Of a stretch of DNA of 48,504 bases, positions 11,957 to 46,539 are shown piece by piece (position 1 is the first letter of the stretch; each line of letters begins with the position of its first letter). The stretch is from Mesorhizobium sp. ZC-5 (GTDB lineage Bacteria > Pseudomonadota > Alphaproteobacteria > Rhizobiales > Rhizobiaceae). The translations under genes were made by a program, and so were the position numbers. The DNA is taken from NCBI RefSeq assembly GCF_025753855.1, contig NZ_JAOWPT010000021.1, positions 1 to 48,504 of the forward strand, read 5' to 3'. The notes under the pieces are model-generated. The model was not told where the DNA came from and ran no database searches. It saw only the letters and a program-made list of their open reading frames with translations.

Positions 11957-11989
11957 GTAAAAAAGTAACGAGCTGAATGAGTTTATTTC
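11957..11989. promoter_or_regulatory. 33-bp operator-like palindrome, copy A
   Basis: Left arm GTAAAAAAGTAAC, 7-bp centre GAGCTGA, right arm ATGAGTTTATTTC. The left arm is degenerate and the right arm is close to the consensus ATGACTTTATTTC. It ends 82 bases before the ATG of the acyl-CoA synthetase gene at 12072, a normal place for an operator or activator site. It is one of six copies in the window. Confidence 0.7.
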
Positions 11990-12071
11990 GGATCTCTAGA
12001 GCAGCCCGCTTGCGATATGGAGGCTAATCAAGCGGCCGTAGTATCACCGCAAACCAGATCAATGGAGCACA

Positions 12072-14216
12072 ATGTTGAGCGACCAAGACGCGCGAGAATT
12101 GAGACGCGGGCGCATCAAGCGGATGCTGTCCCCAAAAAGCGCCGTTTTCATCGGTGGGGCCGCAATGATTCCTGCGATTGAATACTGCCGTGCCCGGGGA
12201 TTTCAGGGTGAAATCTTTGTCGTGAACCCACGCCGGAACGAGTTGGCTGGGGTGAAGTGCGTTCCCACCATCTCCGAACTCCCGATCGACCCGGACGTCG
12301 CTTTCTTAGCCGTTCCGAGAGACGGTCTAATCGGCGTTGTCAGGGAGCTGGCGAGCATCGGCGCCGGTGGTGCAATTTGCAACACCTCCGGGTTCTCCGA
12401 AATGCATGGCGGCGAAGAGTCTCAGAGGCAACTGGTCGAGGCGGCCGGAGAAATGCCGATCATTGGCCCCAACTGCCCGGGCGTAGCGAACTTCGCCGAC
12501 CGTGCGTGCTTCATGATGGATCACTTCGGCGATCAAGACGTCGGTGGTTGCGTAGCTCTAATAAGCAACGGTGGTTCCTATCTGTCAGACCTTGGCTGTG
12601 CAGATCGTTCTATTCCGATTGCCTATTCGATTGGGCTTGGCAATCAGGCGATGTTGAGTGTCGCCGATTTGATGGACGTCGTTCTCGATGATCCACGCGT
12701 TAAGGCCATCAATCTGTATCTTGAAAGCATCAGGGAAGTCTCCGTTCTTTCCGCCGCAGCGCTGAAGGCAGCTCGCAAGAACATCCCGGTGGTTGTTATC
12801 AAGGGTGGAAGGACAACTGCAGGTCAACGAGCCACACAGTCACATACTGCCTCACTTGCAGGCGATGATGTTGTCGCATCGGCCCTCTTCCGTCGTCTTG
12901 GATTCGTCGAGGTTGGTACACCACTTGAAGCGTTGGAAACGCTGAAAATGCTTGTTTACGCACCGTCTGTGAAGGGGCGTCGCACGGCGTATGTAACCAG
13001 TTCTGGAACCTATGCGGTGCTCGGTAGCGACGTTTCGGAGTTCAACGGCTTGGACCTTCAGCCGCCGTCAGCCGAAGCGGCAGCCGAGACCGAAAAGTAT
13101 CTGCCGCCGTTCATCCACCCGGCAAACCCTCTGGACATCTCTTCCGCGCAGAATGAGGGCTATGACCACAATCTGGATCTTTACCGTGCGTATCTTTCAG
13201 ATCAGCCCGATATGGCGCTCATGGTCATGTGCTTCCCACCGGAGAAGGGCTGGGATCCGATAACGTGGCAAACCACTACTGCCGCATTCGCAAAGGCCGC
13301 CGCAGAACGGGAGATACCGGCAGCGTTCGTCAACACTGTTCCCGAGCTGCTTCCAAAAGCGGACCGAGAAAAGATGATTGCGGACGGCCTGGTTCCGCTT
13401 CAAAGCCTGGAAGACGGCATTCGCGCGGTTTCGAACGCAATGCGGGCGTCCGAACTTGCGGAAGAATTGGCTCGCAAATCCGATGACGAAATCCTGATTG
13501 AACCACGCCTTACTGGCCAAGTCGAGCCCATGTCTCTCGACGAGGCCGAAGCGAAGGCGGAACTCGCAATACACGGTGTAAGTGTGCCGCGAAACATCGT
13601 TGTCCAACCGGAAACCCGTGTTTCCCTGGAGGAGCTGCAGTTCCCGGTCGTCGTCAAAGCTCTCAGCTCCGAGCTCGCCCACAAGAGCGAGCTCGGTGGC
13701 GTTGCCCTGAAGATCCAGTCTGCAGAAGAAGTTTGGCAGATTGTTCGCCTGATGGCTGCGAAGCTCAAGCAAACCGCTCCACATATCGACATCCAGCACT
13801 TCCTGGTCGAGGAAATGGTAAGAGATGGCGTCGGTGAGCTGCTCGTGGGCATCCGCCATGTTGACGGGATCGGCCTCGCGCTGACTGTCGGCTTCGGGGG
13901 AACGGAGGCTGAGTTGCTCCGAGACACGAAGACGGTGCTTCTGCCAGCGTCCTCGGACACGATTTCCGAGGCCATTCAAAGCCTGCGGCTCTATCCACTG
14001 CTCTCCGGATGGCGCGGGCGTATCGCTGGCGATGTCGAAGCAGCCGTCTCGGCCATCAAAAAGATGTCCGATTGGGCGATCTCGTTAGGTGAAGCCTTTG
14101 TCGAAGCTGAGATCAACCCGTTGATCGTCCGCCCGAAAGGTGTGGTTGCGGTAGATGCTGTCACCCGGCTTTCAAAAAAGGCCGCTCCGACGCAACGGGA
14201 ACAACTTTTAGCCTAG
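12072..14216 (+). CDS. ADP-forming acyl-CoA synthetase (acetate-CoA ligase family)
   Basis: Predicted to make an acyl-CoA from a free acid, ATP and CoA, releasing ADP and phosphate. The 714 residues contain a CoA-binding Rossmann domain (about 15-140, with SAVFIGGAAMIPAIEYCRARGF). Succinyl-CoA-synthetase-alpha-like domains follow, with the phosphorylated histidine in SHTASLAGDD (His258). A C-terminal ATP-grasp domain spans about 480-710 (FPVVVKALSSELAHKSELGGVALKI, EMVRDGVGELLVGIRHVDGIG, EAEINPLIVRPKGVVAVDA). The alpha and beta parts are fused, as in many bacterial homologues. The substrate is not determined. It is the first gene after operator copy A, and the dehydrogenase and racemase follow on the same strand, so it probably primes their substrate. 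Confidence 0.9.
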   Translation: MLSDQDARELRRGRIKRMLSPKSAVFIGGAAMIPAIEYCRARGFQGEIFVVNPRRNELAGVKCVPTISELPIDPDVAFLAVPRDGLIGVVRELASIGAGGAICNTSGFSEMHGGEESQRQLVEAAGEMPIIGPNCPGVANFADRACFMMDHFGDQDVGGCVALISNGGSYLSDLGCADRSIPIAYSIGLGNQAMLSVADLMDVVLDDPRVKAINLYLESIREVSVLSAAALKAARKNIPVVVIKGGRTTAGQRATQSHTASLAGDDVVASALFRRLGFVEVGTPLEALETLKMLVYAPSVKGRRTAYVTSSGTYAVLGSDVSEFNGLDLQPPSAEAAAETEKYLPPFIHPANPLDISSAQNEGYDHNLDLYRAYLSDQPDMALMVMCFPPEKGWDPITWQTTTAAFAKAAAEREIPAAFVNTVPELLPKADREKMIADGLVPLQSLEDGIRAVSNAMRASELAEELARKSDDEILIEPRLTGQVEPMSLDEAEAKAELAIHGVSVPRNIVVQPETRVSLEELQFPVVVKALSSELAHKSELGGVALKIQSAEEVWQIVRLMAAKLKQTAPHIDIQHFLVEEMVRDGVGELLVGIRHVDGIGLALTVGFGGTEAELLRDTKTVLLPASSDTISEAIQSLRLYPLLSGWRGRIAGDVEAAVSAIKKMSDWAISLGEAFVEAEINPLIVRPKGVVAVDAVTRLSKKAAPTQREQLLA

Positions 14217-14326: not shown

Positions 14327-15490
14327 ATGGACTTTGCTCTCTCGGAAGACGAAAGCCTCATCTACAAGACCGCTACACATTTTTGCGAAAAGGAACTTAT
14401 GCCGCACGAGGAATTGCTTGAGCGGACAGGCGAATTTCCAATCGAATTAGAGTTGGAAATCCGGCGGAAGGGCATCGCCGTAGGACTTCATGCCTGCAAC
14501 ATGCCAGAGAGTGTTGGCGGCGGTGGACTGAACTGCGTTTCCCTCACCTTGGTTGAGAAAGGGCTTTCCCGCGCCTCGACCGCTCTTGCTGAGGCGGTTC
14601 GCAGGCCTTTCAACATTCTGGCAGCGTGCGAAGGGGAGCAAGTCGCACACTTTCTCGAGCCGGTTATGAGTGGTGAAAAACGCGACTGCATCGCAATGTC
14701 TGAACCCGACGTGGGCTCCGACCTGCGGAGCATGAAAACCCGAGCGGTGCGTGACGGTGCGGATTGGATCATCAACGGCACGAAACATTTTATCTCGAGC
14801 GCGCAAAGGTCCCAATTCGTGATCCTTTTCGCGGTCACTGGAGAGGACGAGACACCACGAGGCGTCAAGAAGCGGATTTCCTGTTTCCTGATCGACCTCG
14901 ACACGCCTGGGCTCGTGGTCGCAAAGGGATATCAGCAGTTGGGTCACCGCGGCCACTCCAACAGTATTCTTCATTTCGACAATTGTCGGATCGGCGGCTG
15001 GCAGTTAGTTGGAGAGGAAGGGCAGGGGTTTGCCCTCGTGTCGAAATGGCTTGGAGAGGGGCGCCTTTCAGTAGCAGCTGTCTGTCAAGCGCGTGCAGAA
15101 AGAGCTTTCGAGTATGCTTCTGAATATGCTGCGCGGCGCAAGCAGTTCGGGCAACCGATCGGTAATTTCCAAGGCATAGGGTTTCCACTTGCGGATATGG
15201 CCACAGATATCCGCATCGGCGACCTTCTGTTGATGAACACCGCCTGGAAGGTGGATCAAAAGTCTCCGACCGTCGCACAAGATTGTGCAATGGCGAAAGT
15301 GTGGTGTTCTGAAATGCTTGGACGAGTGGCTGATCAAGCCATCCAGACCTGCGGCGGCATGGGGTTGATGACCGACCTGCCACTAGAGCGCATCTACCGT
15401 GACGCGCGCGCTGAGCGCATTTGGGAAGGCACCTCGGAAATCCAAAGACGTATCATCAGCCGTGAGTTGATGCGCGAGCAGGGTATCTGA
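14327..15490 (+). CDS. acyl-CoA dehydrogenase, module copy 1
   Basis: FAD-dependent alpha,beta-dehydrogenation of an acyl-CoA. The 387 residues include CIAMSEPDVGSDLRSMKTRAV (FAD/substrate loop), WIINGTKHFI, RRKQFGQPIGNFQGIGFPLADMA and QTCGGMGLMTDLPLERIYRDAR. The terminal IWEGTSEIQR places a glutamate at residue 367, where medium-chain-type enzymes have their catalytic base. CaiA-type crotonobetainyl-CoA reductases lack that glutamate, so this is more likely a true dehydrogenase. By hand count it differs from the copy at 18841 at about 55 of 387 positions (about 86% identity). It is followed 85 bp later by its racemase partner, an arrangement repeated at 18841-21284. Confidence 0.93.
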   Translation: MDFALSEDESLIYKTATHFCEKELMPHEELLERTGEFPIELELEIRRKGIAVGLHACNMPESVGGGGLNCVSLTLVEKGLSRASTALAEAVRRPFNILAACEGEQVAHFLEPVMSGEKRDCIAMSEPDVGSDLRSMKTRAVRDGADWIINGTKHFISSAQRSQFVILFAVTGEDETPRGVKKRISCFLIDLDTPGLVVAKGYQQLGHRGHSNSILHFDNCRIGGWQLVGEEGQGFALVSKWLGEGRLSVAAVCQARAERAFEYASEYAARRKQFGQPIGNFQGIGFPLADMATDIRIGDLLLMNTAWKVDQKSPTVAQDCAMAKVWCSEMLGRVADQAIQTCGGMGLMTDLPLERIYRDARAERIWEGTSEIQRRIISRELMREQGI

Positions 15491-15575
15491 TCTTAGGCCC
15501 GCTCGTTTCGAATTGAGAATGTGAAGGCTTCCTCGCATCAGCGTGCCGGGGCGCCGCAAGTGAGGATATAGGTAC

Positions 15576-16724
15576 ATGGGCGTTCTAAGCGGTGTCCGCA
15601 TCATCGAGATGGTTGGACTAGGACCAGCACCATTCTGCGGAATGATCCTGGCAGACTTAGGGGCCGACGTGATCGCCGTTGAGCGTCCAGGTGCGGACCA
15701 TGGAGCACCTCGGCCTTGGTCGTTGGTGAATCGCGGAAAGCGCTCAATCGTACTCGATTTGAAAAAGCCAGGGGCGGTCAATCTGTTTCTGGAACTGCTC
15801 GACGGTGCCGACGCTCTCATCGAAGGGAACAGGCCCGGCGTGATGGAGCGTCTTGGGCTCGGCCCTGAAGCCTGTATCGCAAGGCGGCCAGCGCTCGTCT
15901 ACGGGCGCATGACTGGATACGGGCAGTTCGGACCGCTGTCGAATGCAGCGGGACACGACGCGAATTACGTGGCACTCTCCGGCGCGCTTTGGCTGGCTAC
16001 CCAACCCGGAATAGCTCCAGAGGCGCCCCCGACTATCCTCGGCGATTCGGCTGGGGGAGCACTCTACCTAGCGATTGGCATTCTTGCTGGCATTCTGCGA
16101 GCGAGAAAGGACGGGGTCGGCCAAGTTATCGATGCCGCGATGGTGGATGGTTCCGCGCATCTCATGAGCCTTCTGCTGTCGTTCCTCGCCAGCGATTATA
16201 ACTACTCGACTGCCAATGCGCGACCCGGCGCGCTCGGACGGCATTACGATCGCGCATATGTCTGCGGGGACGGACTATGGGTCGTCGTGCAGGCGGAAGA
16301 GCCGAAATTCTACGCAGAATTGTTGCATCGCCTCGGGCTGGAACAGGAGGAGCGATTCTCCGAGGAAGTCAGGCACAATCCAAAGTCCTGGGGACCTCTC
16401 AGCCAAGAGCTCGCAGCAATCTTCAAGTCCAAGACGCGGAAGGAATGGTGCGAACTTTTGGAGAATACGGACACCTGTTTCACACCGGTGCTCACGATGG
16501 AGGAAGCAGCGGTCCACCCGCATATGATGGCCCGCAACGTTTTCAGCAACGTAGATGGCGTGCTGCAGCCGAATCCTGCCCCACGTTTTTCGGTAACACC
16601 ATCTGCCAATCCGACTTCCATCCCGCACCGTGGCGCGAACACAGCCGAGATTTTGGCTGAACTGGGAGTCGGCGCGGCGCAAATTCAAGAGCTCCGCCTT
16701 GCTGGCGCTCTTGGCCCTAGCTGA
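15576..16724 (+). CDS. alpha-methylacyl-CoA racemase (CaiB/BaiF family), module copy 1
   Basis: Predicted to interconvert (2R)- and (2S)-methylacyl-CoA. The family also contains class III CoA transferases, but the M. tuberculosis racemase residues Arg91, His126, Asp156 and Glu241 are matched, each shifted by exactly one. Arg92 is in GNRPGVMERLGLGP, His127 in AAGHDANY, Asp157 in ILGDSAGGALYLAIGILAG and Glu242 in QAEEPKFYAELL. The 382-residue length also fits. GQVIDAAMVDGSAHLMSLL is typical of racemase members. A neighbouring dehydrogenase that accepts only the 2S form would explain the pairing; that is inference. A CoA-transferase activity cannot be fully excluded. Confidence 0.82.
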   Translation: MGVLSGVRIIEMVGLGPAPFCGMILADLGADVIAVERPGADHGAPRPWSLVNRGKRSIVLDLKKPGAVNLFLELLDGADALIEGNRPGVMERLGLGPEACIARRPALVYGRMTGYGQFGPLSNAAGHDANYVALSGALWLATQPGIAPEAPPTILGDSAGGALYLAIGILAGILRARKDGVGQVIDAAMVDGSAHLMSLLLSFLASDYNYSTANARPGALGRHYDRAYVCGDGLWVVVQAEEPKFYAELLHRLGLEQEERFSEEVRHNPKSWGPLSQELAAIFKSKTRKEWCELLENTDTCFTPVLTMEEAAVHPHMMARNVFSNVDGVLQPNPAPRFSVTPSANPTSIPHRGANTAEILAELGVGAAQIQELRLAGALGPS

Positions 16725-17751: not shown

Positions 17752-17784
17752 GTAAAAAAGTCACCAGCTGAATGATTTTATTTC
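17752..17784. promoter_or_regulatory. 33-bp operator-like palindrome, copy B
   Basis: Left arm GTAAAAAAGTCAC, centre CAGCTGA, right arm ATGATTTTATTTC. It lies between the divergent hydrolase (start 17644) and crotonase (start 17959). It is very like copy A, sharing GTAAAAAAGT and most of the right arm, although the downstream genes are different. Confidence 0.72.
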
Positions 17785-17958: not shown

Positions 17959-18729
17959 ATGAGCGAAGAATCCAACTGCGTTCTGATCGAGCGCCGAGGC
18001 TCGATCCTGATTGCGACTTTGAATCGCCCGCATACCAGGAACGCTTTCAATCTGGACATGGCCAAGGCGCTGGAGAAGGCCATGGACGTGCTGGATAATG
18101 AAGAGGACCTGTTCGTCGGAATTCTAACCGGTGCGAACGGCACGTTCTCTTCGGGTATGGATTTGAAGGCTGCTGCCAAGGATGGCATCCCGCCGCCGCT
18201 AGCGCGTGGTGATTTCGGCATAATGGGTCGTCCTCCACGCAAGCCGTTAATTGCGGCTGTTGAAGGGTACGCTCTTGCTGGTGGTTTCGAGACAGCGCTT
18301 TCTTGCGATCTAATCGTTGCAGCGCGCGATGCGAAGTTCGGGCTTCCTGAGGTGCGCCACAACCTAGTAGCGACAAACGGCCTTGTCCGGCTTCCGACAC
18401 GCATGCCGTATCACCTTGCAATGGAAATTGCGCTCACGGGCGCATTCAAAGAAGCGCCGTACTTCGAGCGGTTCGGCGTGATCAATCAGATCACGGAACC
18501 CGGGAAGGCGCTGGAAGGCGCAATCAAGCTTGCCGAAGTACTCCTCGAAAATGGGCCGCTTGCGATGGCTGCGAGCAAGGAAATGATGTTCCAGTCTTTC
18601 GATAAACAGCCAGACGAAGAGCGGCTCAAGGAGCTACCGATCGTTCAAAGGGTGAATGGCTCAGAAGACGAGCGAGAAGGTCTGCTTGCTTTCGCTGAAA
18701 AGCGGAAACCCGTGTGGAAGGGGCGATAA
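17959..18729 (+). CDS. enoyl-CoA hydratase/isomerase (crotonase family) 1
   Basis: Predicted to hydrate the double bond made by an acyl-CoA dehydrogenase. The 256 residues show the crotonase motifs LNRPHTRNAFNLDM, GTFSSGMDLKAAA (first oxyanion glycine), VEGYALAGGFETALSCDLIVAARDAKFGLPEVRHNL (second oxyanion loop and both acidic residues) and the tail LLAFAEKRKPVWKGR. That tail is shared with CaiD-type crotonobetainyl-CoA hydratases and many relatives, so substrate class stays open. ATG 17959 has GGGAGA upstream; an in-frame ATG at 17812 would add 49 residues that do not look like crotonase. It heads a likely operon with the dehydrogenase and racemase of module copy 2. Confidence 0.9.
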   Translation: MSEESNCVLIERRGSILIATLNRPHTRNAFNLDMAKALEKAMDVLDNEEDLFVGILTGANGTFSSGMDLKAAAKDGIPPPLARGDFGIMGRPPRKPLIAAVEGYALAGGFETALSCDLIVAARDAKFGLPEVRHNLVATNGLVRLPTRMPYHLAMEIALTGAFKEAPYFERFGVINQITEPGKALEGAIKLAEVLLENGPLAMAASKEMMFQSFDKQPDEERLKELPIVQRVNGSEDEREGLLAFAEKRKPVWKGR

Positions 18730-18840
18730 CACAGACCTACGCGCTGATCGCGGCACCCGAAGGCAGCCACGGCCGCTTTCAGAATTAAGCAGCGGTCAGT
18801 TCATCCAGCATTCTACATTTGAATTGGGAGGTAAATCGGT

Positions 18841-20004
18841 ATGGACTTCGAACTAAACGAAGAAGAAAAATTAATTTACAATACTGCCAGAGAGTTCTGC
18901 GAGAAAGAGCTTATCCAACATGAGGAGCTGCTGGAACGGACTGGAGTCCTCCCTCCTGAACTGGATCTGGAGATACGCAAGAAAGGCATGGCAATCGGTC
19001 TTCATGCCTGCAATCTGCCAGAAAGCGTGGGCGGAGGCGGGTTGAACTGCGTCTCGTTAACTCTCGTGGAGCGCGGCCTCTCCCGCGCGTCAACTGCGTT
19101 GGCAGAGTGTGTGCGGCGGCCGAATAATATCCTCGCCGCATGTGAAGGGGAGCAGGTAGCTCATTTCCTCGAGCCCGTCATGCGAGGTGAGAAGCGTGAG
19201 TGTATCGCTATGTCCGAGCCTGACGCCGGCTCCGATCTGCGCAGCATGAAGACTAAAGCGGTCAAAGACGGTTCAGACTGGATCATCAACGGGACCAAGC
19301 ATTTCATCGGATACGCTCAACGGTCCCAGTTTGTTATCTTATTCGCGGTGACTGGCGAAGAGCACACTCCAAAGGGCATTAAGAAGCGCATTTCGTGCTT
19401 TTTGGTCGATTTGGATGCACCTGGCGTGACTGTTGCCAAGGGTTACGAACAGCTTGGTCACCGGGGTCATTCCAACGACATTCTGCATTTCGACAATGTT
19501 CGAGTCGGTGGCTGGCAAATGGTCGGTGAAGAAGGAGAAGGTTTTAAGGTCGTTACAAAGTGGCTGGGAGAAGGGCGGCTTTCAGTTGCCGCCGTCTGTC
19601 AGGCTCGTGCCGAGCGAGCTTTCGAAGTGGCTGTGGAGTATGCCGCTCGTCGGAAGCAATTCGGCCAAGCCATTGGCAACTTTCAAGGCATAGGTTTTCC
19701 ACTCGCGAATATGGCGACGGACATTCGTCTGGGCGATCTACTGCTTATGAATACTGCTTGGAAAGTTGATCAAAAAGCTCCAACGGTTGCGCAAGATTGC
19801 GCCATGGCAAAGGTTTGGTGCTCCGAGATGCTGGGGCGTGTTGCTGACCAAGCAATCCAGACTTGCGGTGGTATGGGCTTGATGACCGATCTTCCCCTCG
19901 AACGCATTTATCGAGATGCCCGTGCGGAACGCATATGGGAAGGCACATCTGAAATCCAGCGTTTCATAATTAGCCGTGAGCTCATGCGAGCGCACGGCGC
20001 GTAG
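18841..20004 (+). CDS. acyl-CoA dehydrogenase, module copy 2
   Basis: Same length (387 residues) and role as the gene at 14327, with about 86% identity by hand count. It keeps IAMSEPDAGSDLRSMKTKAV and the catalytic glutamate in IWEGTSEIQRFIISREL. This copy has the family-typical DAGSD and QRFI where copy 1 has DVGSD and QRRI, so copy 2 is nearer the usual form. Differences cluster at residues 1-50 and 170-240, while the C-terminal 140 residues are almost unchanged. GGGAGG-like sequence precedes the ATG. It probably belongs to one operon with the crotonase upstream and the racemase downstream. Confidence 0.93.
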   Translation: MDFELNEEEKLIYNTAREFCEKELIQHEELLERTGVLPPELDLEIRKKGMAIGLHACNLPESVGGGGLNCVSLTLVERGLSRASTALAECVRRPNNILAACEGEQVAHFLEPVMRGEKRECIAMSEPDAGSDLRSMKTKAVKDGSDWIINGTKHFIGYAQRSQFVILFAVTGEEHTPKGIKKRISCFLVDLDAPGVTVAKGYEQLGHRGHSNDILHFDNVRVGGWQMVGEEGEGFKVVTKWLGEGRLSVAAVCQARAERAFEVAVEYAARRKQFGQAIGNFQGIGFPLANMATDIRLGDLLLMNTAWKVDQKAPTVAQDCAMAKVWCSEMLGRVADQAIQTCGGMGLMTDLPLERIYRDARAERIWEGTSEIQRFIISRELMRAHGA

Positions 20005-20135
20005 GCCAACCGCCCAATCTCATTCAATCAACAACATCAGAAGATGTGCGCTGAACTATCGCGTAACCGACATCGGCCTCATTCACCCGTCTCCGCATAG
20101 GGGTGCCACGCGGAGACAAGCACAGGGAACCGTCC

Positions 20136-21495: not shown

Positions 21496-21528
21496 GCTGA
21501 CAACTCATGCCGGGGATGAGTTTTTTTC
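21496..21528. promoter_or_regulatory. 33-bp operator-like palindrome, copy C
   Basis: Left arm GCTGACAACTCAT, centre GCCGGGG, right arm ATGAGTTTTTTTC. The inner CTCAT and ATGAG pair exactly and the outer left arm is degenerate. It ends 105 bases before the ATG of the binding-protein gene at 21634. Confidence 0.65.
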
Positions 21529-23217: not shown

Positions 23218-23308
23218 ATCGCTCCAAGGCTAGGCTGCTCCAGCGCTGGGACAACCGCCTTCGTGCAGCCTGACAATTGTCAGTTTCCGCATTTCAGCAT
23301 TGTAAGTC

Positions 23309-25529: not shown

Positions 25530-25623
25530 TGGAACCTCCAACGTGGTCAGTGTGGCAGCCGTTTAGTGCTGACACCACAAGGCTTCGCTTCCAAGGGTAG
25601 GGGTTCGAGCAGACTTGAATGCG

Positions 25624-26442: not shown

Positions 26443-26492
26443 GGTCAGTTAAGTCCAAGTATGCCGGATACGTAGCCTAGTGAGACCGACTT

Positions 26493-27449: not shown

Positions 27450-27467
27450 GTTTCGCTGAAGTATCTC

Positions 27468-30039: not shown

Positions 30040-30072
30040 GAAGCAAAGTCACCGGTCAGGTTACTTTTTTGC
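30040..30072. promoter_or_regulatory. 33-bp operator-like palindrome, copy E
   Basis: Left arm GAAGCAAAGTCAC, centre CGGTCAG, right arm GTTACTTTTTTGC. It ends 97 bases before the ATG of crotonase 2 at 30170. Apart from it and a scatter of AT-rich bases, the 362-bp gap 29808-30169 shows no gene. Confidence 0.65.
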
Positions 30073-37453: not shown

Positions 37454-37578
37454 TTCGAGCCTTAAATCGCCGCAATCCGGCAGCCACGCCCGTCAAGGCG
37501 CGGCCACCAGAATTGACCGAGAGGTGCTTGTCGATGTGCTTGAGGTGCCGCCAAGCATTTTGCCAAGTCAACCACTAG

Positions 37579-37597
37579 ACCCACACACAGCGTGGGT
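37579..37597. other. short hairpin between proX and proW
   Basis: ACCCAC (37579-37584) pairs with GTGGGT (37592-37597) across a 7-base loop, in the 171-bp gap after the binding-protein gene. Stem-loops here often protect the upstream binding-protein message or reduce read-through to the permease. The stem is short, so this is tentative. Confidence 0.35.
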
Positions 37598-37624
37598 GGT
37601 GCCCGGAGAGCGCGCTTGTTGATC

Positions 37625-38596: not shown

Positions 38597-38703
38597 TGTT
38601 TTCTCCTGTTGGTATTCCAATTCCAGGCGATGTCCCCAGCAGCTATGAAGTCGCCGGAGCGGTTCCCCACATCAGGAATTATAGGAATGCCGAACATTTA
38701 ACT

Positions 38704-38718
38704 AACGAATATAATTCG
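38704..38718. promoter_or_regulatory. AACGAATATAATT element upstream of proX
   Basis: AACGAATATAATT (38704-38716) occurs again upstream of the LysR gene (40755-40767). Within it CGAAT-ATA-ATTCG (38706-38718) is a perfect 5-bp inverted repeat. It lies 110 bases upstream of the proX start. It also contains TATAAT on the plus strand, so a promoter core is the simple alternative. Confidence 0.4.
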
Positions 38719-38755
38719 ACCCTGACATCGACTTTTTCGATGTCCAAACGAGCCG

Positions 38756-39841
38756 TCAGTCGATCGCAAAGCGCTCCACAGCAGTTTCATCAAACGTGAA
38801 ACCGGCTCCGGGACGGGTGGGTATGAGGATGTCGCCATCCACGATCTCCATCTGTTCGCGGAACAGCGGCGCATACCACGGCATGTGTTCCACGGAGATG
38901 CAATTGGCGGCAGATCCTGCGATGCACAGGCTGTGCTCGGTGAAAATATGGGTGGAAATGGGCAGGCAGTACGCTTCCGCCAAAGCCGCCACCCGGCGCA
39001 TTTCGGTAAGTCCACCAATCCGCTGGAGGTCCGGCATCAACACATCGGCGGCGCGGGCCTCGATCGTGTTGCGGATGCCGAAGCGTGTCCACTCCGTCTC
39101 ACCCGAAGCAATCGCCATGTCGAGCGCATTACGAACTTCGGCCTGGCCCACGAGGTCATGCACAGATACCGGCTCTTCCAGCCAGCCGATGTCGAGGTCC
39201 TCAAGCATCCTGCCAAGACGGATCGCCTGCTTTGGAGTGAGCGCCTGGTTGGCGTCCGTGAGGATTTCGATGGAGGGTCCGACTGCCTCTCGGACTGCCT
39301 TGACGCGCTCGAGATCCTTTCTAGGGTCTTTGTTGCCGACACGCACCTTCATCGCCCGGAACCCCTGGTTAAGAAAGATCGCCGCCTCATCAACCAGTTC
39401 GTCGATGCTCTGGGAAAGCCAGAGTCCGCCGCTGGCGTATGTGCGGATGCGATCTCGGCACGCTCCGAAAAGGTGATGCAGTGGCCGATCCGCGCTTTTG
39501 CCGACCAGATCCCAACAGGCCGTGTCGAGCGCGGAAAGCGCCGAGATCGTGACGCCAGCATAGCCAGTTGGATTGATTTCGGACCAGATGGCTGAATTGA
39601 TCGCCGTCACATAGTGAGGGTCCTGGCCCACGATGCGATGCGAAAAGCCACGGACCATCTCGTCGAAGGCTTTGAGCCGGACGGCATTCAACGTGAAGAT
39701 ATAACTCTGGCCCACGAGCCCGACATCGGTCTCCAGATAGACAAGCAGGCATCCGACCGAACGCATATTGTGAATGGCAGTTGTGATCGGCTTAGCAAAA
39801 GGAACGTCTGTCGGTCGAGTCTTCAACGCGGTGATTTTCAT
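38756..39841 (-). CDS. enolase-superfamily enzyme, mandelate racemase type
   Basis: A 361-residue dehydratase or epimerase acting on a hydroxy-acid. The acid/base lysine is in AMKVRVGNKDP (K-x-R form). The metal ligands are in ILTDANQALTP (Asp), IGWLEEPVS (Glu) and IASGETEWT (Glu). The second catalytic side is MPDLQRIGG (Asp) and STHIFTEHS (His), with VEHMPWYAPLF carrying the glutamate of the mandelate-racemase subgroup. All key residues look present. ATG 39841 has AAGGAA upstream. It is transcribed ahead of the proX operon, and the LysR gene lies just upstream. The substrate is unknown. Confidence 0.86.
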   Translation of the reverse strand: MKITALKTRPTDVPFAKPITTAIHNMRSVGCLLVYLETDVGLVGQSYIFTLNAVRLKAFDEMVRGFSHRIVGQDPHYVTAINSAIWSEINPTGYAGVTISALSALDTACWDLVGKSADRPLHHLFGACRDRIRTYASGGLWLSQSIDELVDEAAIFLNQGFRAMKVRVGNKDPRKDLERVKAVREAVGPSIEILTDANQALTPKQAIRLGRMLEDLDIGWLEEPVSVHDLVGQAEVRNALDMAIASGETEWTRFGIRNTIEARAADVLMPDLQRIGGLTEMRRVAALAEAYCLPISTHIFTEHSLCIAGSAANCISVEHMPWYAPLFREQMEIVDGDILIPTRPGAGFTFDETAVERFAID

Positions 39842-39866
39842 GAGATTCCTTTGTGCAGGTTGAGGT

Positions 39867-40712
39867 TCAGGCGATCGCCTCACGCAATGCCTTCACAGCG
39901 GTTTCCATAAATTCAGGTGCAATGACGTCAATACGAACGGCTACGAAGACTGTTCGTTGAAAGCGCGGCGCACCCTTGACCACATGCAGGTGGCCGGACT
40001 TGACGTGCGGTGCCACGGATTCGGCCAGGAAATAGCCCGAACCACCGCTAGCGAGGATGTGATCCATGGCCACCGCGGCGCTGCGGATCGTGAGTTTATG
40101 GCTGAAGACGCCCGGAAAATGCATGCTATGCTGCGCCCGGAACGTTTCCCCCCAATCCACGAAAACGTAGCCAGGAACGACCCCGCTCTCCACCGCGCGC
40201 GGTGTTGTCGAAACCATCACGAGTTCTTCGCTGATGAGCGGTTCGATGCGCGCCTCCGCGCAATGGCGCGGATCATAAAGCACGGCAATGTCGAGCAGTC
40301 CCGCTCGGAGTTTCTCCATAAGCGTATCCGAGCGCTCGGCGATGGCGCTCGCGACTCCATCCGGCAGGGCCTTGGCCATACGTTCCAGCCAGCCGGGCAC
40401 CACGCGGGGCCAATGATTGTCTTCGACGCCGAGCGTGACGAAGGCATTCAGGCCCTCCGGCAGGGTTGCGACTTGCTGGCCGCGCTCCCAGGCCCGGACG
40501 ATATTGATGGCGCTGGAGTGGAACTGATGCCCGCCGGTCGTCAAAGCCACTCCGTTACGCTTACGGTGAAACAGTTGGCGGTTTAGCCGGCGCTCGAGGG
40601 ACTTGATTCGAGCGCTGATGGTCGACTGCGTGACGTTCAACTGATCGGCGGCGTGTTGGAAGCTGCCGGTGCTGCCAACCTCCAAGAATGCCCGAATGTG
40701 CTCAATATTCAA
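39867..40712 (-). CDS. LysR-family transcriptional regulator
   Basis: A 281-residue regulator. It begins (L/M)NIEHIRAFLEVGSTGSFQHAADQLNVTQSTISARIKSLERRLNRQLFHRKR, a clear winged HTH. I chose the TTG at 40712 because it gives the conserved NIEHIR N-terminus and has GAGGA upstream; the 43 upstream residues of the longer frame are not LysR-like. It lies 25 bp from the enolase-superfamily gene on the same strand and is divergent from the dehydrogenase at 40899, so it probably controls this hydroxy-acid cluster. Confidence 0.88.
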   Translation of the reverse strand: MNIEHIRAFLEVGSTGSFQHAADQLNVTQSTISARIKSLERRLNRQLFHRKRNGVALTTGGHQFHSSAINIVRAWERGQQVATLPEGLNAFVTLGVEDNHWPRVVPGWLERMAKALPDGVASAIAERSDTLMEKLRAGLLDIAVLYDPRHCAEARIEPLISEELVMVSTTPRAVESGVVPGYVFVDWGETFRAQHSMHFPGVFSHKLTIRSAAVAMDHILASGGSGYFLAESVAPHVKSGHLHVVKGAPRFQRTVFVAVRIDVIAPEFMETAVKALREAIA

Positions 40713-40754
40713 CGCAAAGCCGTCCTCAAATCGAATTCTTCGATATGACTCGAT

Positions 40755-40767
40755 AATTATATTCGTT
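40755..40767. promoter_or_regulatory. AACGAATATAATT element upstream of LysR gene
   Basis: On the minus strand this reads AACGAATATAATT, identical over 13 bases to the element upstream of proX (38704-38716). It lies 43 bases upstream of the TTG start at 40712. It includes TATAAT, a perfect -10 hexamer, so it may be the promoter itself. Confidence 0.4.
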
Positions 40768-40898
40768 TGCCACGTCAATGCGGGTGAGAAAGAGTGGATT
40801 GCGGGATCCAGTGATGACAGCGCCAACTGGAGACATGCCAAATTTGGGCGGGCTCCCCCGGAGGTCGAAGCGCCGGCTGCCCCTGAACGGAGACATCT

Positions 40899-41807
40899 AT
40901 GCGGATTGCATTTATCGGGTTGGGCAATATGGGCGGGCCTATGGCCAGCAACTTGGCGCGCGGCGGCTACGAACTCGCGCTTTTCGACCTCGATTCAAAT
41001 AAGGTCGATGCCGTCCGATCAACCGGAGCGGCAGCCGGCAACCAGGCGATCTCAGCGGCCACGACTGCAGCCGAGGCCGCCTCTGGCGCCGACATCGCGT
41101 TCACCTCCCTACCTAACCCAAAAATCATCGAGTCTGCGGCGCTCGGAGAGAAGGGCATTGTTGCCGCGTTGCCGAAAGGTGCGGTATGGATCGATCTCTC
41201 AACGAACAACCTCGAATGCGAGCGTCGCATCCGCGCGGCCGCCGATGCTTGCGGGATCGATTTCCTTGATGCTCCGGTCTCCGGCGGCATTGAAGGCGCC
41301 GCAGCCGGGACGCTGATGATCATGGTCGGTGGAGACGCCCAAGTCTTTGCCCGCTGCAAGCCAGTCCTCGACAAGATCGGCAACCGGGTCATGCACCTAG
41401 GGCCTCATGGAGCCGGCTACGTCGCCAAGATTGCACAGGTCGTGCTATGCTACCTCAACTCCGTGGCCCTCAGCGAGGCCCTCATGCTCGGGGTCAAAGG
41501 CGGGGTTCCCGCAGATACCATGCTGGGGATCATCCAGGGCAGTACCGGGGCGAGCTACGTCGCCAATCGATACGGCCCGGCGATTCTGGACGGCAGCTAT
41601 GACCCGGGATTTGCACTCGGGCTTGCACACAAAGATATGGCCCTGACCCTGGAGCTCGCAGGATCTGTCGGCGCCACGCTGCCGATGTGCGAGCAGGTCG
41701 AGGCGGTCTACAAAAAAGCTGTCGACAAATACGGTTTCGATCAAAACCACCTCATGGCTGTGAAGCTCCTGGAAGAGCAGAACGGCACATTCCTTCGTTC
41801 CACCTGA
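40899..41807 (+). CDS. 3-hydroxyisobutyrate dehydrogenase-family oxidoreductase
   Basis: A 302-residue beta-hydroxyacid dehydrogenase (NAD(P)-dependent; relatives act on 3-hydroxyisobutyrate, tartronate semialdehyde and 4-phospho-erythronate-like acids). The Rossmann motif IGLGNMGGPMASNLARGGYE is at the N-terminus. The substrate motif DAPVSGGIEGAAAGTLMIMVGG is near residue 125, and the catalytic lysine is in GYVAKIAQ, where many relatives have asparagine four residues on. With the aldolase and D-2-hydroxyacid dehydrogenase downstream it forms a three-gene hydroxy-acid set. Confidence 0.88.
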   Translation: MRIAFIGLGNMGGPMASNLARGGYELALFDLDSNKVDAVRSTGAAAGNQAISAATTAAEAASGADIAFTSLPNPKIIESAALGEKGIVAALPKGAVWIDLSTNNLECERRIRAAADACGIDFLDAPVSGGIEGAAAGTLMIMVGGDAQVFARCKPVLDKIGNRVMHLGPHGAGYVAKIAQVVLCYLNSVALSEALMLGVKGGVPADTMLGIIQGSTGASYVANRYGPAILDGSYDPGFALGLAHKDMALTLELAGSVGATLPMCEQVEAVYKKAVDKYGFDQNHLMAVKLLEEQNGTFLRST

Positions 41808-41832
41808 CACGATATAAGCGAAAGGATTACCA

Positions 41833-42606
41833 ATGGCATACGAGATGAAAGCCGAGGACTTCAGCGTCCAGGGCGGCCACGCCAACATCTCCAAGGAAGA
41901 ATGGGAAGCGCGAGTGGACCTTGCGGCCCTCTATCGCCTCGCCAACATGTACGGCTACGACGATCTGATCTGGAACCACATCACGATGCGGGTTCCAGGT
42001 ACCGATCACCAGTTCCTCCTGAACCGCTTCGGCCTACTCTATAACGAGGTCACAGCGTCGAACCTGATCAAGGTCGACGAACAGGGCAAGGTTCTGTACG
42101 GCCCGCCGGACGTCAATACTGCGGGTTTCGTCATCCATTCAGCGATCCACAACACCCATCACGACATGAAAGTGGTCTTCCACAGCCACGCGCCCGCAGG
42201 CCTGGCCATCACAGCACTACAGGATGGCCTGGAATTCCTGACACAGGACGGCTCGATGCTTTGGGGCGACATCGGCTACCACGACTGGGAAGGCCTGTCG
42301 CTGACCCTTGAGGAGCGGGATCGTCTCGCCAAGAACATCGAAGGCAAGAAATGCCTGATCATGAAGAACCACGGGTTTCTCGCGGTTGGTGCCAACGCCG
42401 GCGAAGCCTTCATGAACCTATATTATACGGTCCGAGCGTGCCGAGTTCTGATCGATGCCTATTCTACCGGCCTCAAGCTCGACAAGAGCCGCGAAGACAT
42501 CTGGCGGCTAGCACATCGGCAGTATGACGATTTCCCGCTCGGTAAATATGAATGGCCTGCGCTGTTGCGCCAATGCGACCGGGTCGATCCTTCTTACCGC
42601 TATTAA
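41833..42606 (+). CDS. class II aldolase/adducin-family protein
   Basis: A 257-residue metal-dependent aldolase or decarboxylase. The zinc ligands are in VVFHSHAPAG (His-x-His) and IMKNHGFLAVG (third His). LYRLANMYGYDDLIWNHITMRVPG is the typical N-terminal segment. Family members act on sugar phosphates or 3-oxo-4-carboxy acids; the exact substrate is unknown. AAGGA precedes the ATG, and the gap to the upstream dehydrogenase is 25 bp. Confidence 0.88.
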   Translation: MAYEMKAEDFSVQGGHANISKEEWEARVDLAALYRLANMYGYDDLIWNHITMRVPGTDHQFLLNRFGLLYNEVTASNLIKVDEQGKVLYGPPDVNTAGFVIHSAIHNTHHDMKVVFHSHAPAGLAITALQDGLEFLTQDGSMLWGDIGYHDWEGLSLTLEERDRLAKNIEGKKCLIMKNHGFLAVGANAGEAFMNLYYTVRACRVLIDAYSTGLKLDKSREDIWRLAHRQYDDFPLGKYEWPALLRQCDRVDPSYRY

Positions 42607-42743
42607 ACTGACAGCTTGATCCTCGGCAGACACTGGCCGGGGTTCCTGTGGCAACATTTTTTCAACGCCCCGCACGGAGGTCGAACGACCCGCCGTCCCT
42701 TCCGTGCGGGCCGAATTCCTTCCAGCCGGGGGCACCCGAACCG

Positions 42744-43670
42744 ATGACCATCCTGTTGAATAATCATGGCTACGACAATGAAAGCTGGCGGAGGGAACTC
42801 TGCCGCCAGCTTCCTGAATTGCCTGTCAAAGTGTTCGGTGAACCGATTGATCCCGATGAAGTCGTCTATGCGATGGTCTGGAACCACCCCGCAGGTGATC
42901 TTAACCGCTATCCGAATCTCAAGGCAATTTTCTCCCTCGGCGCCGGGGCCGAACATTTCGTGGCAGATACAAGCCTGCCTGACGTCCCGGTGATTCTCCT
43001 CGCCGACCCGGCCGTGGCCCGAGACATGGCGGCCCATGCCCTTTACTGGGTGCTGACGTTCCACCGGCGCTACGCGGACTACCGTTCCCAGCAGAAAGAC
43101 CGGATCTGGCATCGTAAGCAGATCGTCCCTACGAAAGAGTTTCGCGCGGGGGTGTTCGGTTTGGGTCGCATCGGCACAGAAGTCGCCAGCCGCATCCGCG
43201 ATTTTGGTTACGCCGTCAGCGGGTGGGACCGCAGCGCGCGACAGATCGAGGGGGTCGACTGCTTTTCCGGAACGGATACCCTGCGAGACTTCCTGAGTCG
43301 CATCGACGTCGTCATCAACGCCCTTCCGCTATCCCCGAAGACGCGGCACTTTCTCGATGAGAAGATATTCGCGGTCATGCCCCCGGGCAGCTTTTTTGTC
43401 AACATCAGCCGCGGCGCAGTCGTCCACGACGAGTCCCTGCTTGACGCGCTCGACCGCGGCCATCTCGCCGGCGCCGCGTTAGATGCATTTGCCCAGGAAC
43501 CGCTCCCTCCCGAGCATCGCTATTGGACTCACCCCCAGGTGTACATCACGCCGCATATGTCGGGGGCCACATTTGCATCGAGCGCCGTAGCCGTGATCGC
43601 CACCAACGTGCGCCGTCTTGAGCGCGGACTTGAGGTCTTTCCGTTGTTCAACCGGGAAGCCGGCTATTGA
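42744..43670 (+). CDS. D-2-hydroxyacid dehydrogenase (glyoxylate/hydroxypyruvate reductase A type)
   Basis: A 308-residue NAD(P)H enzyme. The nucleotide motif is GVFGLGRIGTEVASRI, and the catalytic arginine, glutamate and histidine are in NISRGAVVHDESLLDAL, DAFAQEPLP and VYITPHMSGAT. The layout is closest to GhrA-type glyoxylate/hydroxypyruvate reductases. I chose ATG 42744 (MTILLNNHGY); the open frame upstream from 42648 looks non-coding. It is the third gene of the plus-strand set and ends 16 bp from the converging GlxA-type regulator. Confidence 0.87.
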   Translation: MTILLNNHGYDNESWRRELCRQLPELPVKVFGEPIDPDEVVYAMVWNHPAGDLNRYPNLKAIFSLGAGAEHFVADTSLPDVPVILLADPAVARDMAAHALYWVLTFHRRYADYRSQQKDRIWHRKQIVPTKEFRAGVFGLGRIGTEVASRIRDFGYAVSGWDRSARQIEGVDCFSGTDTLRDFLSRIDVVINALPLSPKTRHFLDEKIFAVMPPGSFFVNISRGAVVHDESLLDALDRGHLAGAALDAFAQEPLPPEHRYWTHPQVYITPHMSGATFASSAVAVIATNVRRLERGLEVFPLFNREAGY

Positions 43671-43686
43671 ACTTATCGGCATAATA

Positions 43687-44784
43687 TCACGCCCTATTTT
43701 GGTGCAGATCCAAATCAGGGTGCGTATGGACGGTGCCAGGTTGTGCTGCCGTTGGCACGCCGAGAAATCTTCCGGCCGGAAGATTTCTGGCTTTGTGAGG
43801 CGCTATCTGATGTGCCTGGCGGAAACACCTCGAAAAGTGGGAGGCGGACACGAAGCCACAGGATACCGCGATTTCCAGAACGGGCATCGCCGACTGGGCA
43901 AGCAGGAGCTTCGCGTGTTCCAATCGCAATTCCCGGAAGTAGCGGCAGGGAGAGCGACCGATATCATTGCGGAAGAGGCGTTCCACCTGCCGCCGCGACA
44001 GCCCTGCAGCCGCCGCAAGGTCCGCCATGGTCAGCGGGGCTGCCAAATTCCTCTGCATCAATTCGATGAGTTTCACGACCGTGGGGTTGAGCCTGCCATG
44101 CTGACGCAGAAGCGGCAGCCGCTGGCGCTCCTCGCCTGTGCGCACACGGCCCGCAACGGCCAACTCCGCAACACTCACCGCGACAGGTTCGCCGCAATGA
44201 TATTTCACAAGCTCGACCATCATATCGAAGGCTGCCGTGCCGCCGGCGCAACTCCAGATGTTGTTGTCGACCTCGTAGATGGTCGCCGCAGCCTCGACGC
44301 GCATGAACCGCTCGTTGAAGGCCGGCAATGCTTCCCAATGGACGGCGCACTTGCGGTCATTCAGCAGACCCGCTTTCGCCAAAGCAGCGACACCACTCCC
44401 GAATGCGCCCGTGTCAATGCGGCGCTGCCGGCATTCGCGCAACCATGCGCTCAGCACCTTGGTTTCAGGTCCTCCATCAGGCTCATCACCGAAGACCAGA
44501 GCCAGTACCGGGCGTTCAGGCTGCATCAAATACCTGCGCTCCTGTGCCAAGTCGGCGTCCGCCGTGAAAACGATGCCGCAGTTGGCCCTCACGGTTCCAC
44601 CCAGGTGGGAAACAATACGCCAGCGAAAGGCTTCACGCCCGGCGACTTTATTGGTGAGGCGGAAGACGTCCAAGACGGACGACACGGCGAGAAGTTCGAA
44701 TCCAGGTGCCAAGTAGAGGGCGACAGTAATCGGTTCAATGGCAGAAGCCGACGCCCAGGCGCCGTGGGACCAGTGATGGACCAT
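43687..44784 (-). CDS. GlxA-type regulator (DJ-1/PfpI plus AraC HTH), 1
   Basis: A 365-residue regulator. The N-terminal domain is a class I amidotransferase-like fold (ITVALYLAPGFELLAVSSVLDVFRLTN) in which the nucleophile position reads GAFGSGVAALAKAG, so the usual cysteine is missing, as expected for a ligand sensor. The C-terminal AraC domain has two HTHs (MADLAAAAGLSRRQVERLFRNDIGRSP and EIAVSCGFVSASHFSRCFRQAHQIAP). Relatives (GbdR, CdhR) sense glycine betaine or carnitine. ATG 44784 is used; ATG 44886 would add 34 residues not seen in relatives. It is head to head with the gene at 44885. Confidence 0.85.
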   Translation of the reverse strand: MVHHWSHGAWASASAIEPITVALYLAPGFELLAVSSVLDVFRLTNKVAGREAFRWRIVSHLGGTVRANCGIVFTADADLAQERRYLMQPERPVLALVFGDEPDGGPETKVLSAWLRECRQRRIDTGAFGSGVAALAKAGLLNDRKCAVHWEALPAFNERFMRVEAAATIYEVDNNIWSCAGGTAAFDMMVELVKYHCGEPVAVSVAELAVAGRVRTGEERQRLPLLRQHGRLNPTVVKLIELMQRNLAAPLTMADLAAAAGLSRRQVERLFRNDIGRSPCRYFRELRLEHAKLLLAQSAMPVLEIAVSCGFVSASHFSRCFRQAHQIAPHKARNLPAGRFLGVPTAAQPGTVHTHPDLDLHQNRA

Positions 44785-44884
44785 GATCAGACTCTCCGCC
44801 TTGTTCTTCGAGCGACAGGCGAGAACCCGCCCGCGCCATAATCTGATCGAAGGGGCAAATCCACGAAAGGATAGTTGCGTCAAC

Positions 44885-45979
44885 ATGGCGGTATATTTGC
44901 GACACGGTGATTTCTTCACCAAAAATCAGGCTCAAAGGCCAGGGCGCGAGCCTGCCCCGTTATCCGTCGGGTTTCTCCTCCTCCACCGCTTTACACTTGG
45001 GGCGTTCGCAAATTTCGTAGACGTGCTGCGACTTGCTGCCGACGATGGGGACCGAAGCCGCCCAATCCACTGCCAATGGCGTGTCATATCGCCCGATATG
45101 TCGCCGATCCTGTCCAGCTGCGGCGTTGCGATTTCTCCCCATGAACGGATCGGAGATCTTCGCCGCTTTGACTACCTGGTGGTCGTTGGCGGGGTTCTCG
45201 AAGAGGAAAGCCTCCTTGTCGACACCCGGTTTGACAACCATTTGCGGGTCGCTGCCGAGGCTGGCGTGCCTCTCGTGGGGTTGTGTACCGGTTCGTTCAT
45301 CTTGCACCGTGCCGGTCTGATGCACGGTTATAGGTGTTGCGTCAGCTGGTTCCACAATTCGGATTTCCTGCGACTTTTCGAGGGCCTTCAGGCCATTTCC
45401 GACCAGATTTTCGTTGTCGATCGAGACCGGCTGACCTGTTCGGGCGGCGCGAGCGCCGCGCATCTTGCAGCCTTCCTCGTCGACAGGCACCTCGGCAAAG
45501 CCCTGGCCTCCAAGAGTTTGCGGATTATGATGTTCAACGAGGCGGCAAAGGGTGAGACGGCGCAGCCGACCGGGCGCCTTGAGGTTGTCGTCCGGGACGA
45601 AATCCTGAAACGCGCAGTGCTGCTGATGCAGCACCACCTTGAGGTTCCGCTGACTATCGGCCGGATAGCCGACAAGCTCAACATAAGCAAACGACTGGTC
45701 GAGCGCCGCTTTCGATCGGAACTCCATACCTCGCCTCAGACGGTCTACACCCAGATACGGCTCGATCACGCTCGCCATCTTCTGCTGAGAACCGACAGGT
45801 CGATTTCAAGCATCGCCCTGGAATGCGGCTTCTGCGACGGTTCGCACCTGAGCCGCGTCTTTCGCCCTCGTTACTTGCGGACGCCTCAAGAGTTCAGGTC
45901 GCAGCAAGGAGAATCGCTGTCCCTGCATCGCGGCCAACGGCACGGCAATAAGGAACCGGCGTCGGGTAACGGGACCTAG
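44885..45979 (+). CDS. GlxA-type regulator (DJ-1/PfpI plus AraC HTH), 2
   Basis: A 364-residue regulator with the same architecture as the divergent neighbour. The sensor fold has LSVGFLLLHRFTLGAFANFVDVLRLAADD and the nucleophile region GLCTGSFILHRAG, where the cysteine is present. The AraC part has IADKLNISKRLVERRFRSELHTSP and SIALECGFCDGSHLSRVFRPRYLRTP. The pair share a 100-bp intergenic region. The presence of proXWV and betB in the window supports, but does not prove, a quaternary-ammonium ligand. Confidence 0.85.
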   Translation: MAVYLRHGDFFTKNQAQRPGREPAPLSVGFLLLHRFTLGAFANFVDVLRLAADDGDRSRPIHCQWRVISPDMSPILSSCGVAISPHERIGDLRRFDYLVVVGGVLEEESLLVDTRFDNHLRVAAEAGVPLVGLCTGSFILHRAGLMHGYRCCVSWFHNSDFLRLFEGLQAISDQIFVVDRDRLTCSGGASAAHLAAFLVDRHLGKALASKSLRIMMFNEAAKGETAQPTGRLEVVVRDEILKRAVLLMQHHLEVPLTIGRIADKLNISKRLVERRFRSELHTSPQTVYTQIRLDHARHLLLRTDRSISSIALECGFCDGSHLSRVFRPRYLRTPQEFRSQQGESLSLHRGQRHGNKEPASGNGT

Positions 45980-46539
45980 TTTGGATTAAAATAACCTTTC
46001 AAACAGGATCGCTATTCCACGAATAATCGCAGTATAGCGCTAGATGCGCCATGATACGCGGCGGCGGTAGCATAGCACAAAATGCCGATGATCGATCTCA
46101 CACGGGAAAAAATCGTTGTGGTGGTGCAATCAGCTTTTCCGGGGTCCAAAAAGCCCTGCCGGTAGGAGGTTCACCGGTAGGCCACCCCGCTTGGAACTGC
46201 GGCCCGCGTAGCTACCCGAAGTCGACAACCGAAGTTGCGAGCTCAAACTGCGGTGTCCACCCACTACATCTTTGGCAAGGTCAGCCGAAGGTCGAAATAA
46301 TGTCATGCGGCAGATGAGTTTTTTGCGCAACTGTCGGGCCCGGCGCAAATGATAGCGTCTACACACTGAACCGCCCGAATGAAGACGCGTAGAAATGAAA
46401 TCCTTGAGGCGTACCGGTCCGCCGAAGAATATACCCGGCCGGGGAGTGGCGCAAACTGGTGGATTACATGTGCAGTTGTACAAGCCCAATCGAGACCACC
46501 GAATCGGCGCTGGCTGCGTCGTCTCACGCGGAGCACCCC
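45980..46539. other. 560-bp gap before the second EamA transporter
   Basis: I see no convincing gene here. It contains operator-like palindrome F at 46294-46326, then 213 bases to the transporter ATG. Short open frames on both strands lack recognisable motifs or good ribosome sites. The region 46130-46290 might be a decayed gene, but I cannot name it. Confidence 0.4.
46294..46326. promoter_or_regulatory. 33-bp operator-like palindrome, copy F
   Basis: Left arm GAAATAATGTCAT, centre GCGGCAG, right arm ATGAGTTTTTTGC. The left arm differs from the perfect copy D by one base. It lies 213 bases upstream of the EamA transporter start at 46540 and about 16 kb from the nearest other copy. Confidence 0.72.

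Follow-up and report, generated by a model that had tools for sequence, protein, structure and literature searches.

What might bring the uptake genes and the acyl-CoA genes spread along one stretch of the Mesorhizobium sp. ZC-5 genome under common control? The stretch analyzed here, referred to as the window, is 48,504 nucleotides long (contig NZ_JAOWPT010000021.1 of assembly GCF_025753855.1, positions 1 to 48,504), and it carries six copies of a 33-bp palindromic element, located exactly at 11957, 17752, 21496, 29204, 30040 and 46294, where a preliminary description made from the sequence had placed them. We consider it likely that the six copies are operators of LysR2, a GcvA-like LysR-type regulator encoded on the minus strand at 33571–34482 and proposed as the operator binder on the basis of its domains and its co-occurrence with the sites, and that LysR2 would use them to switch on uptake and catabolism upon sensing a small molecule.

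A symmetric weight matrix made from the six window 33-mers scores them at 33.3–46.1 bits, or 23.2–40.9 bits when each site is left out in turn. The runner-up position in the window reaches 6.1 bits on the same matrix, a gap of 27 bits to the weakest site, and the best of 20 mononucleotide-shuffled windows reaches 13.3 bits, below every leave-one-out score. The copy at 29204 is a perfect palindrome, whereas the other five are partly self-complementary (8, 9, 9, 13, 9 and 9 of 13 arm positions pair in the six sites, in order), and 281, 67 and 14 33-mers of the window pair at 8, 9 and 10 of 13 arm positions, respectively. Because such palindromy is not rare in the window, the evidential weight lies in the shared sequence and not in the symmetry: the shared sequence of the six sites exceeds chance, and palindromy alone is modest. 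The elements are also confined. The sequence-only model R1, searched at E≤10 on both strands of the whole genome (6,338,586 bases, 68 contigs; 150 of 1470 first-look candidates scored), matches the six intergenic sites only. A loose consensus allowing at most 3 mismatches finds 20 matches in the genome, 12 of which are the six sites on both strands; the remaining 8 compare with 17 for a control pattern.

All six sites are intergenic, given a start of binding protein 2 at ATG 29054, which precedes a twin-arginine-like signal; the longest open reading frame (ORF) of that gene, from TTG 29285, would overlap the site at 29204. The spacing of 82–213 bp from site to start codon in the preliminary description is borne out with start codons chosen by the analyst. 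The predicted operators, assigned to no strand and called with the matrix and the genome model, are arranged as follows. The operator at 11957–11989 lies 82 bp before an acyl-CoA synthetase (ACS) of the ATP-grasp/ADP-forming type (12072–14216, plus strand), which is followed on its 3′ side by acyl-CoA dehydrogenase 1 and CaiB-type protein 1 (14327–16724, plus). The operator at 17752–17784 lies 174 bp before the likely start of crotonase 1 (ATG 17959), which heads a plus-strand run with acyl-CoA dehydrogenase 2 and CaiB-type protein 2 (17959–21284), and also 107 bp upstream of a divergent metallo-hydrolase gene. Binding protein 1 (SBP1; SBP_bac_5) and a 4HBT thioesterase (21634–23785, plus) are preceded at 105 bp by the operator at 21496–21528, which is the weakest copy on the 27-site matrix introduced below (23.6). 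The perfect operator at 29204–29236 stands between a plus-strand gene for a shortened LysR-like protein, mini-LysR (29496–29807), and a minus-strand ABC importer comprising an ATPase, two permeases and binding protein 2 (SBP2; 23844–29054), whose start is 149 bp away; the same arrangement is present in two related genomes, G226 (taken as Mesorhizobium camelthorni) and Aminobacter anthyllidis (G395). The remaining two operators lie 97 bp before the likely start of crotonase 2 (ECH2; operator 30040–30072; gene 30170–31003, plus, from ATG 30170) and 213 bp before that of EamA transporter 2 (EamA2; operator 46294–46326; gene 46540–47472, plus, from ATG 46540).

The motif is present in G226 and A. 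anthyllidis, and it is also found on the M. amorphae plasmid pM0123d (W01) and the Mesorhizobium sp. 131-3-5 plasmid MesoLj131c2 (W02). When a site was sought within 450 bp upstream of each gene copy in the compared stretches of these four and the window genome, the replicons were found mostly to keep site and gene together: a site precedes 6 of 9 ACS copies (that is, 5 of the 8 outside the window), 5 of 6 ECH2 copies, all three EamA2 copies and both SBP1 copies. For SBP2 the proportion is 5/6 using true starts; the automatic count of 1/6 is too low because the matches extended upstream across the site. The association is looser for CaiB (4/8), MBL (2/3), NMO (2/6, or 3/7 before removal of a W01 copy doubled by overlapping slices; the NMO of the window lacks an upstream site), acyl-CoA dehydrogenase (1/7), crotonase 1 (ECH1; 1/5) and ALDH (1/5), and within the same distance in the five replicon sets no site lies upstream of ScfR (0/3), THIO (0/3) or LysR2 itself (0/5), or of PccB (0/3), in agreement with the preliminary remark that the pcc operon lacks the element. 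The EamA2 site is identical letter for letter in three genomes (the window genome, G226 and G395), and the element is kept before orthologs whose protein identity is 62–90%. One type of site thus stands before several promoters, is intergenic and upstream of genes, and is kept before orthologs, with exceptions, as is expected of a regulon, and the reading of the 33-mers as a real, confined and conserved operator is strongly supported by these comparisons. Neither of the outcomes named beforehand as speaking against it, model matches mostly in coding or random intergenic DNA and related genomes that retain the genes but have lost the sites, prevailed. A second ACS–ECH1–dehydrogenase–CaiB set, 70–86% identical, occurs in this genome on another contig (C24, 9357–14931); it contains no 33-bp site, its ACS is interrupted by a stop and its ECH1 match is short. 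Within the window, the pair of acyl-CoA dehydrogenase and CaiB-type genes occurs twice (14327–16724 and 18841–21284), as if duplicated within the cluster.

Which protein would read these operators? LysR2 contains an N-terminal LysR helix-turn-helix (HTH) domain (PF00126, 1e-19) and a C-terminal substrate-binding domain (PF03466, 5.9e-30), and it alone among the regulators of the window has an ortholog in the compared stretches of all five first replicons. Three LysR candidates had been named initially; co-occurrence strongly favours the one at 33571, and not those at 9805 and 29496, the former lacking a close relative in the compared site-bearing stretches and the latter being HTH-only. The sole match of the candidate at 9805 (LysR1, 9796–10671) in the stretches compared has 32% identity and comes from Bradyrhizobium murdochi, which is itself without a site. 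LysR3, AraC1, AraC2 and ScfR have orthologs in A. anthyllidis and partly in M. camelthorni, and none in the plasmid stretches compared, the whole plasmids not having been searched.

A further test used 41-kb plasmid loci chosen by LysR2 homology regardless of the motif; the scoring matrix came solely from 27 sites in the first five replicons, and the threshold was 15 bits. Sites above this threshold were found in Sinorhizobium mexicanum (3), Phyllobacterium zundukense (8), S. fredii CCBAU 45436 (4) and Rhizobium CB3060 and CB3171 (3 each), the last two of which are not independent because their LysR2 rows are identical. Overall, LysR2 homologs of at least 64% identity occur in 13 of the genomes or replicons examined, and 12 of these 13 carry sites above 15 bits, five of the 12 having supplied the matrix, as against 0 of 15 loci with homologs of 45–62% identity (S. 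meliloti AK57, G067, Paracoccus pantotrophus DSM 2944, Rhizobium NXC24, Shinella zoogloeoides, R. leguminosarum WSM1325, P. yeei TT13, Agrobacterium 1D1609, S. americanum, G103, G191, G279, G225, G068 and G380). The best score was 10.3 at the S. meliloti AK57 locus and 9.4 at that of Rhizobium NXC24; the LysR2-homolog gene is in pieces in S. meliloti AK57 and R. leguminosarum WSM1325, and in G067 neither the 11.9-kb contig contains a site nor the whole genome an R1 match at E≤0.5. As controls, no match above 15 bits occurred in 1,463,847 bases of 78 crotonase-neighbourhood loci (L033–L110), and a reversed matrix gave one match above 9 bits in 537,696 bases. Motif-first scans are consistent with this association, both of the large scans using strict filters that lose weak matches. 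R1 finds 3 of 395 genomes of the family (this genome, G226 and G215), and a second model, R2, made from 35 sites read in both orientations, finds this genome and G226 only, both with LysR2. Among 397 order-level genomes, R2 finds this genome and gives strong matches in G544 and G590, which belong to another family; its matches in G704 and G528 are weak. In G544 and G590 a 67% LysR2 ortholog ends 3.9 kb from the site and the 33-bp element also lies ahead of LysR2 (17.2 bits); the two count as one independent case because they belong to one genus and their LysR2 proteins are nearly identical. On these comparisons, the regulator of the operators is very probably LysR2. A single origin of the site-bearing LysR2 clade was also considered and rejected: the tree requires three label changes, though none of 500 label shuffles was as low.

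Several observations weigh against this assignment. The LysR2 promoter lacks a site in the five first replicons, apart from a degenerate one in W02, and it is mini-LysR, not LysR2, that diverges from the best site in the window. In Mesorhizobium B1-1-8, which has a LysR2 of 67.7% identity, no site above 9 bits occurs in 41 kb and the plasmid has no R1 match; a degenerate element lies ahead of its LysR2. Conversely, sites occur where LysR2 was not found, namely the weak sites of G704 and G528 (no LysR2 in the 20 kb examined), the single site of G215 (24.7 bits; none in the surrounding 12 kb) and still weaker matches (E 0.06–0.16) in two metagenome-assembled genomes with crotonase 1 relatives. 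The weak sites without LysR2 are taken for chance matches or sites of other regulators. Since binding by LysR2 is predicted and its own gene lacks a site in five replicons, another regulator, chromosomal or elsewhere, might read the sites while LysR2 merely travels with the clusters. We regard this as unlikely, as the sites follow LysR2 from genus to genus (Mesorhizobium, Aminobacter, Phyllobacterium, Sinorhizobium and Rhizobium) and into another family despite differing target genes, as strong sites are missing from family genomes without LysR2, and as the element occupies LysR2's own promoter at seven loci (S. mexicanum, P. zundukense, S. fredii, CB3060, CB3171, G590 and G544). It is less probable still that the 33-mers are not operators but a palindromic repeat or terminator-like element that is mobile and has spread by copying. 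One sequence is indeed dispersed in several copies and the pM0123d surroundings are rich in insertion sequences, but non-orthologous copies have different flanks, the 7-bp centre is variable, genes follow the copies, and the element is retained before the divergent orthologs mentioned above.

The other protein that might bind the sites is mini-LysR, which has 103 amino acids, comprises the HTH and linker region only (PF00126, 1.1e-11, identified by the HTH match alone) and ends without any match to the LysR substrate-binding domain. It could act as the main binder, as an effector-less HTH dimer that is a constitutive repressor or a competitor of LysR2. Its gene and that of binding protein 2 point away from each other on either side of the perfect site, the classic setting of a LysR gene, in the window, G226 and G395; short forms are found in four replicons and a form joined to a crotonase in the fifth; and its dN/dS values of 0.19–0.55 in six pairs lie below neutrality. 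However, its best tblastn match on the plasmids of P. zundukense, with its eight sites, S. fredii and CB3060 is LysR2 itself, it evolves faster than LysR2 (0.03–0.10 in three pairs; NG86, about 100 codons), and its recognition-helix residues vary among copies and differ from those of LysR2, so that a leading role for mini-LysR seems improbable. On these values from about 100 codons, above those of LysR2 yet below neutrality, mini-LysR may or may not be a plain pseudogene. The copy next to the best site is probably a relative that was duplicated and shortened, and at most it would modulate. The HTH-only proteins of 99–114 amino acids, which end just past the linker, comprise that of the window and those at L124 8712–9032, L021 28639–28938 and L167 6001–6345 (107 amino acids in G226, 99 in W02 and 114 in W01). 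In A. anthyllidis, the same HTH is joined to a crotonase domain in one 390-amino-acid ORF (PF00126 and PF00378; L132 5878–7047, minus strand), the best solved relatives of which are entries named enoyl-CoA hydratase/carnitine racemase and, lower, 1,2-epoxyphenylacetyl-CoA isomerase. An internal ATG lies ahead of the crotonase part, and it is possible that this part is made separately from it. Among the features of the system, the short and the crotonase-joined HTH forms are the most unusual, and few sequences represent them. It is tempting, if rather doubtful, to imagine a two-tier regulon in which LysR2 activates while the effector-less mini-LysR competes for the operators or pairs at them, and in which the A. 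anthyllidis protein could read an acyl-CoA ester directly. If so, mini-LysR would be a built-in brake derived from a duplicated HTH, and the HTH-crotonase a one-component regulator. Such forms hint at how LysR regulators acquire extra layers of control.

The geometry of the operator suggests how LysR2 would act. Four positions, A7, T10, A24 and T27, never vary in the 35 sites when these are read in both directions, and the consensus has a GTCAY-N7-RTGAC-like core, A/T-rich flanks and G and C at its ends. The LysR family operator motif is T-N11-A (PMC5002191); the invariant T10 and A24 give an inverted repeat with T-N13-A instead of strict T-N11-A. The spacing of the arm centres, 20 bp or two helical turns, had been offered as the mark of a dimeric regulator, with which it is compatible, though it proves nothing. 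A −10-like hexamer recurs +25 to +27 after 34 sites, with a mean score above all 1000 shuffles, a statistic that includes orthologous flanks, which are not independent; for the six window sites alone the signal is not significant (p 0.09), which weighs against the model. If the hexamer is the −10 box, the palindrome would extend from about −70 to −38 and so adjoin RNA polymerase, a position that fits activation, and this geometry suggests that LysR2 is an activator. At the seven loci with an element in the LysR2 promoter, it lies 69–75 bp before the start codon and therefore fits autoregulation. In the P. zundukense plasmid (L154), a run of about a dozen G residues stands between this operator and the start of LysR2 at 20001 and could be a slippage tract. 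LysR2 would bind the palindrome, through its core and symmetric A/T-rich flanks, just upstream of promoters, and upon sensing a small molecule would turn on uptake genes (SBP1, SBP2 with the importer, and EamA2) together with catabolic ones (ACS and the downstream dehydrogenase and CaiB genes, and the crotonases). The small molecule that acts as effector is probably of the betaine type, or else a product of such a compound.

Elsewhere the sites precede a different set of genes. The eight sites of P. zundukense lie before two proX genes and before genes for an OpuA-type permease, an NAD(P)/FAD oxidoreductase, a DHDPS-family protein and a mandelate-racemase-family protein, in the gap separating an aldehyde dehydrogenase gene from an MFS gene, and between LysR2 and a divergent trimethylamine-methyltransferase-family gene. 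Similarly, a site in G590 lies between OpuAC and a run of DHDPS, aldehyde dehydrogenase and DAO genes, and MTTB is divergent from LysR2. These gene sets resemble what we take to be proline-betaine or hydroxyproline-betaine catabolism. The label of an acyl-CoA regulon, under which the elements were originally described, is accordingly too narrow, because outside Mesorhizobium and Aminobacter the sites precede genes for OpuA/ProX-type betaine transport, MttB, DHDPS/aldehyde dehydrogenase and mandelate-racemase-family proteins. We infer that LysR2 governs the catabolism of quaternary ammonium compounds of the betaine type, to which the Mesorhizobium/Aminobacter regulon would add an acyl-CoA pathway, acyl-CoA genes being included in some replicons. 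In the window itself, both binding proteins are of family 5, and a NUDIX protein and an aldehyde dehydrogenase lie beyond crotonase 2; the latter passes one NCBIfam betaine-aldehyde dehydrogenase model (731 versus 593) and fails the other (641 versus 668.6). The nearest model of the thioesterase is carnitine 3-dehydrogenase, with a score far under the cut-off, and the nearest PDB entry of CaiB-type protein 1 is alpha-methylacyl-CoA racemase.

Among characterized regulators, LysR2 is closest to GcvA of E. coli, which is both its best solved-structure match (8y6u chain H, 138.9 bits) and its best NCBIfam model, although its 241.1 bits fall short of the GcvA cut-off of 288. It also matches the choline-sulfate utilization regulator (TIGR03418), again below the cut-off (219.3 versus 324.8 bits). 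According to PMC5002191, GcvA sites contain inverted repeats of short length, either ATTA-n7-TAAT or the 15-bp ATTAG-n5-CTAAT with centres at −65 and −43, and the regulator gene is divergent from a target. The present operators resemble these in layout, with a 4–5-bp repeat around 7 bp near −50, but each is a single long palindrome of 33 bp built on a GTCAY core within a strictly A/T-rich frame, and they precede transport and catabolic genes instead of those for glycine cleavage. Proline-betaine regulators offer a further comparison: the neighbourhood of the weaker homolog in Paracoccus pantotrophus holds hpbA, hpbD and betaine transport genes, but no 33-bp site lies near the weaker homologs of P. 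pantotrophus, P. yeei and Shinella. NodD of nodule bacteria, like LysR2, belongs to the LysR family, and its operator too is present in several copies, although the nod box differs in sequence and in targets. NodA is present in this genome, G226 and G395 (3/3), which look like nodule bacteria.

No description of the operator or its regulator, which had been called undescribed, was found among the matches listed in the open-access literature, insofar as its texts were accessible; this absence is weak because most subscription papers fall outside the scope of the search. The system is a new LysR regulon. An orphan LysR-type regulator of nodule bacteria, present in several genera, is thereby tied to a precise operator and a target list, and the site lists would assign transporters and acyl-CoA enzymes, whose substrates are unknown, to a single pathway linked to quaternary-ammonium catabolism. 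The link between regulator and operator makes the question of the substrate testable.

Two other parts of the window are without the 33-bp site. The region 934–8247 contains methylmalonyl-CoA mutase and propionyl-CoA carboxylase genes beside ScfR, a short-chain acyl-CoA regulator, and is conserved in A. anthyllidis and M. camelthorni. The region 35367–45979 encodes an OpuA-type betaine transporter, a mandelate-racemase-family protein, HIBDH, a class II aldolase and two DJ-1/AraC-type regulators, and its genes are about 89–99% identical in A. anthyllidis.

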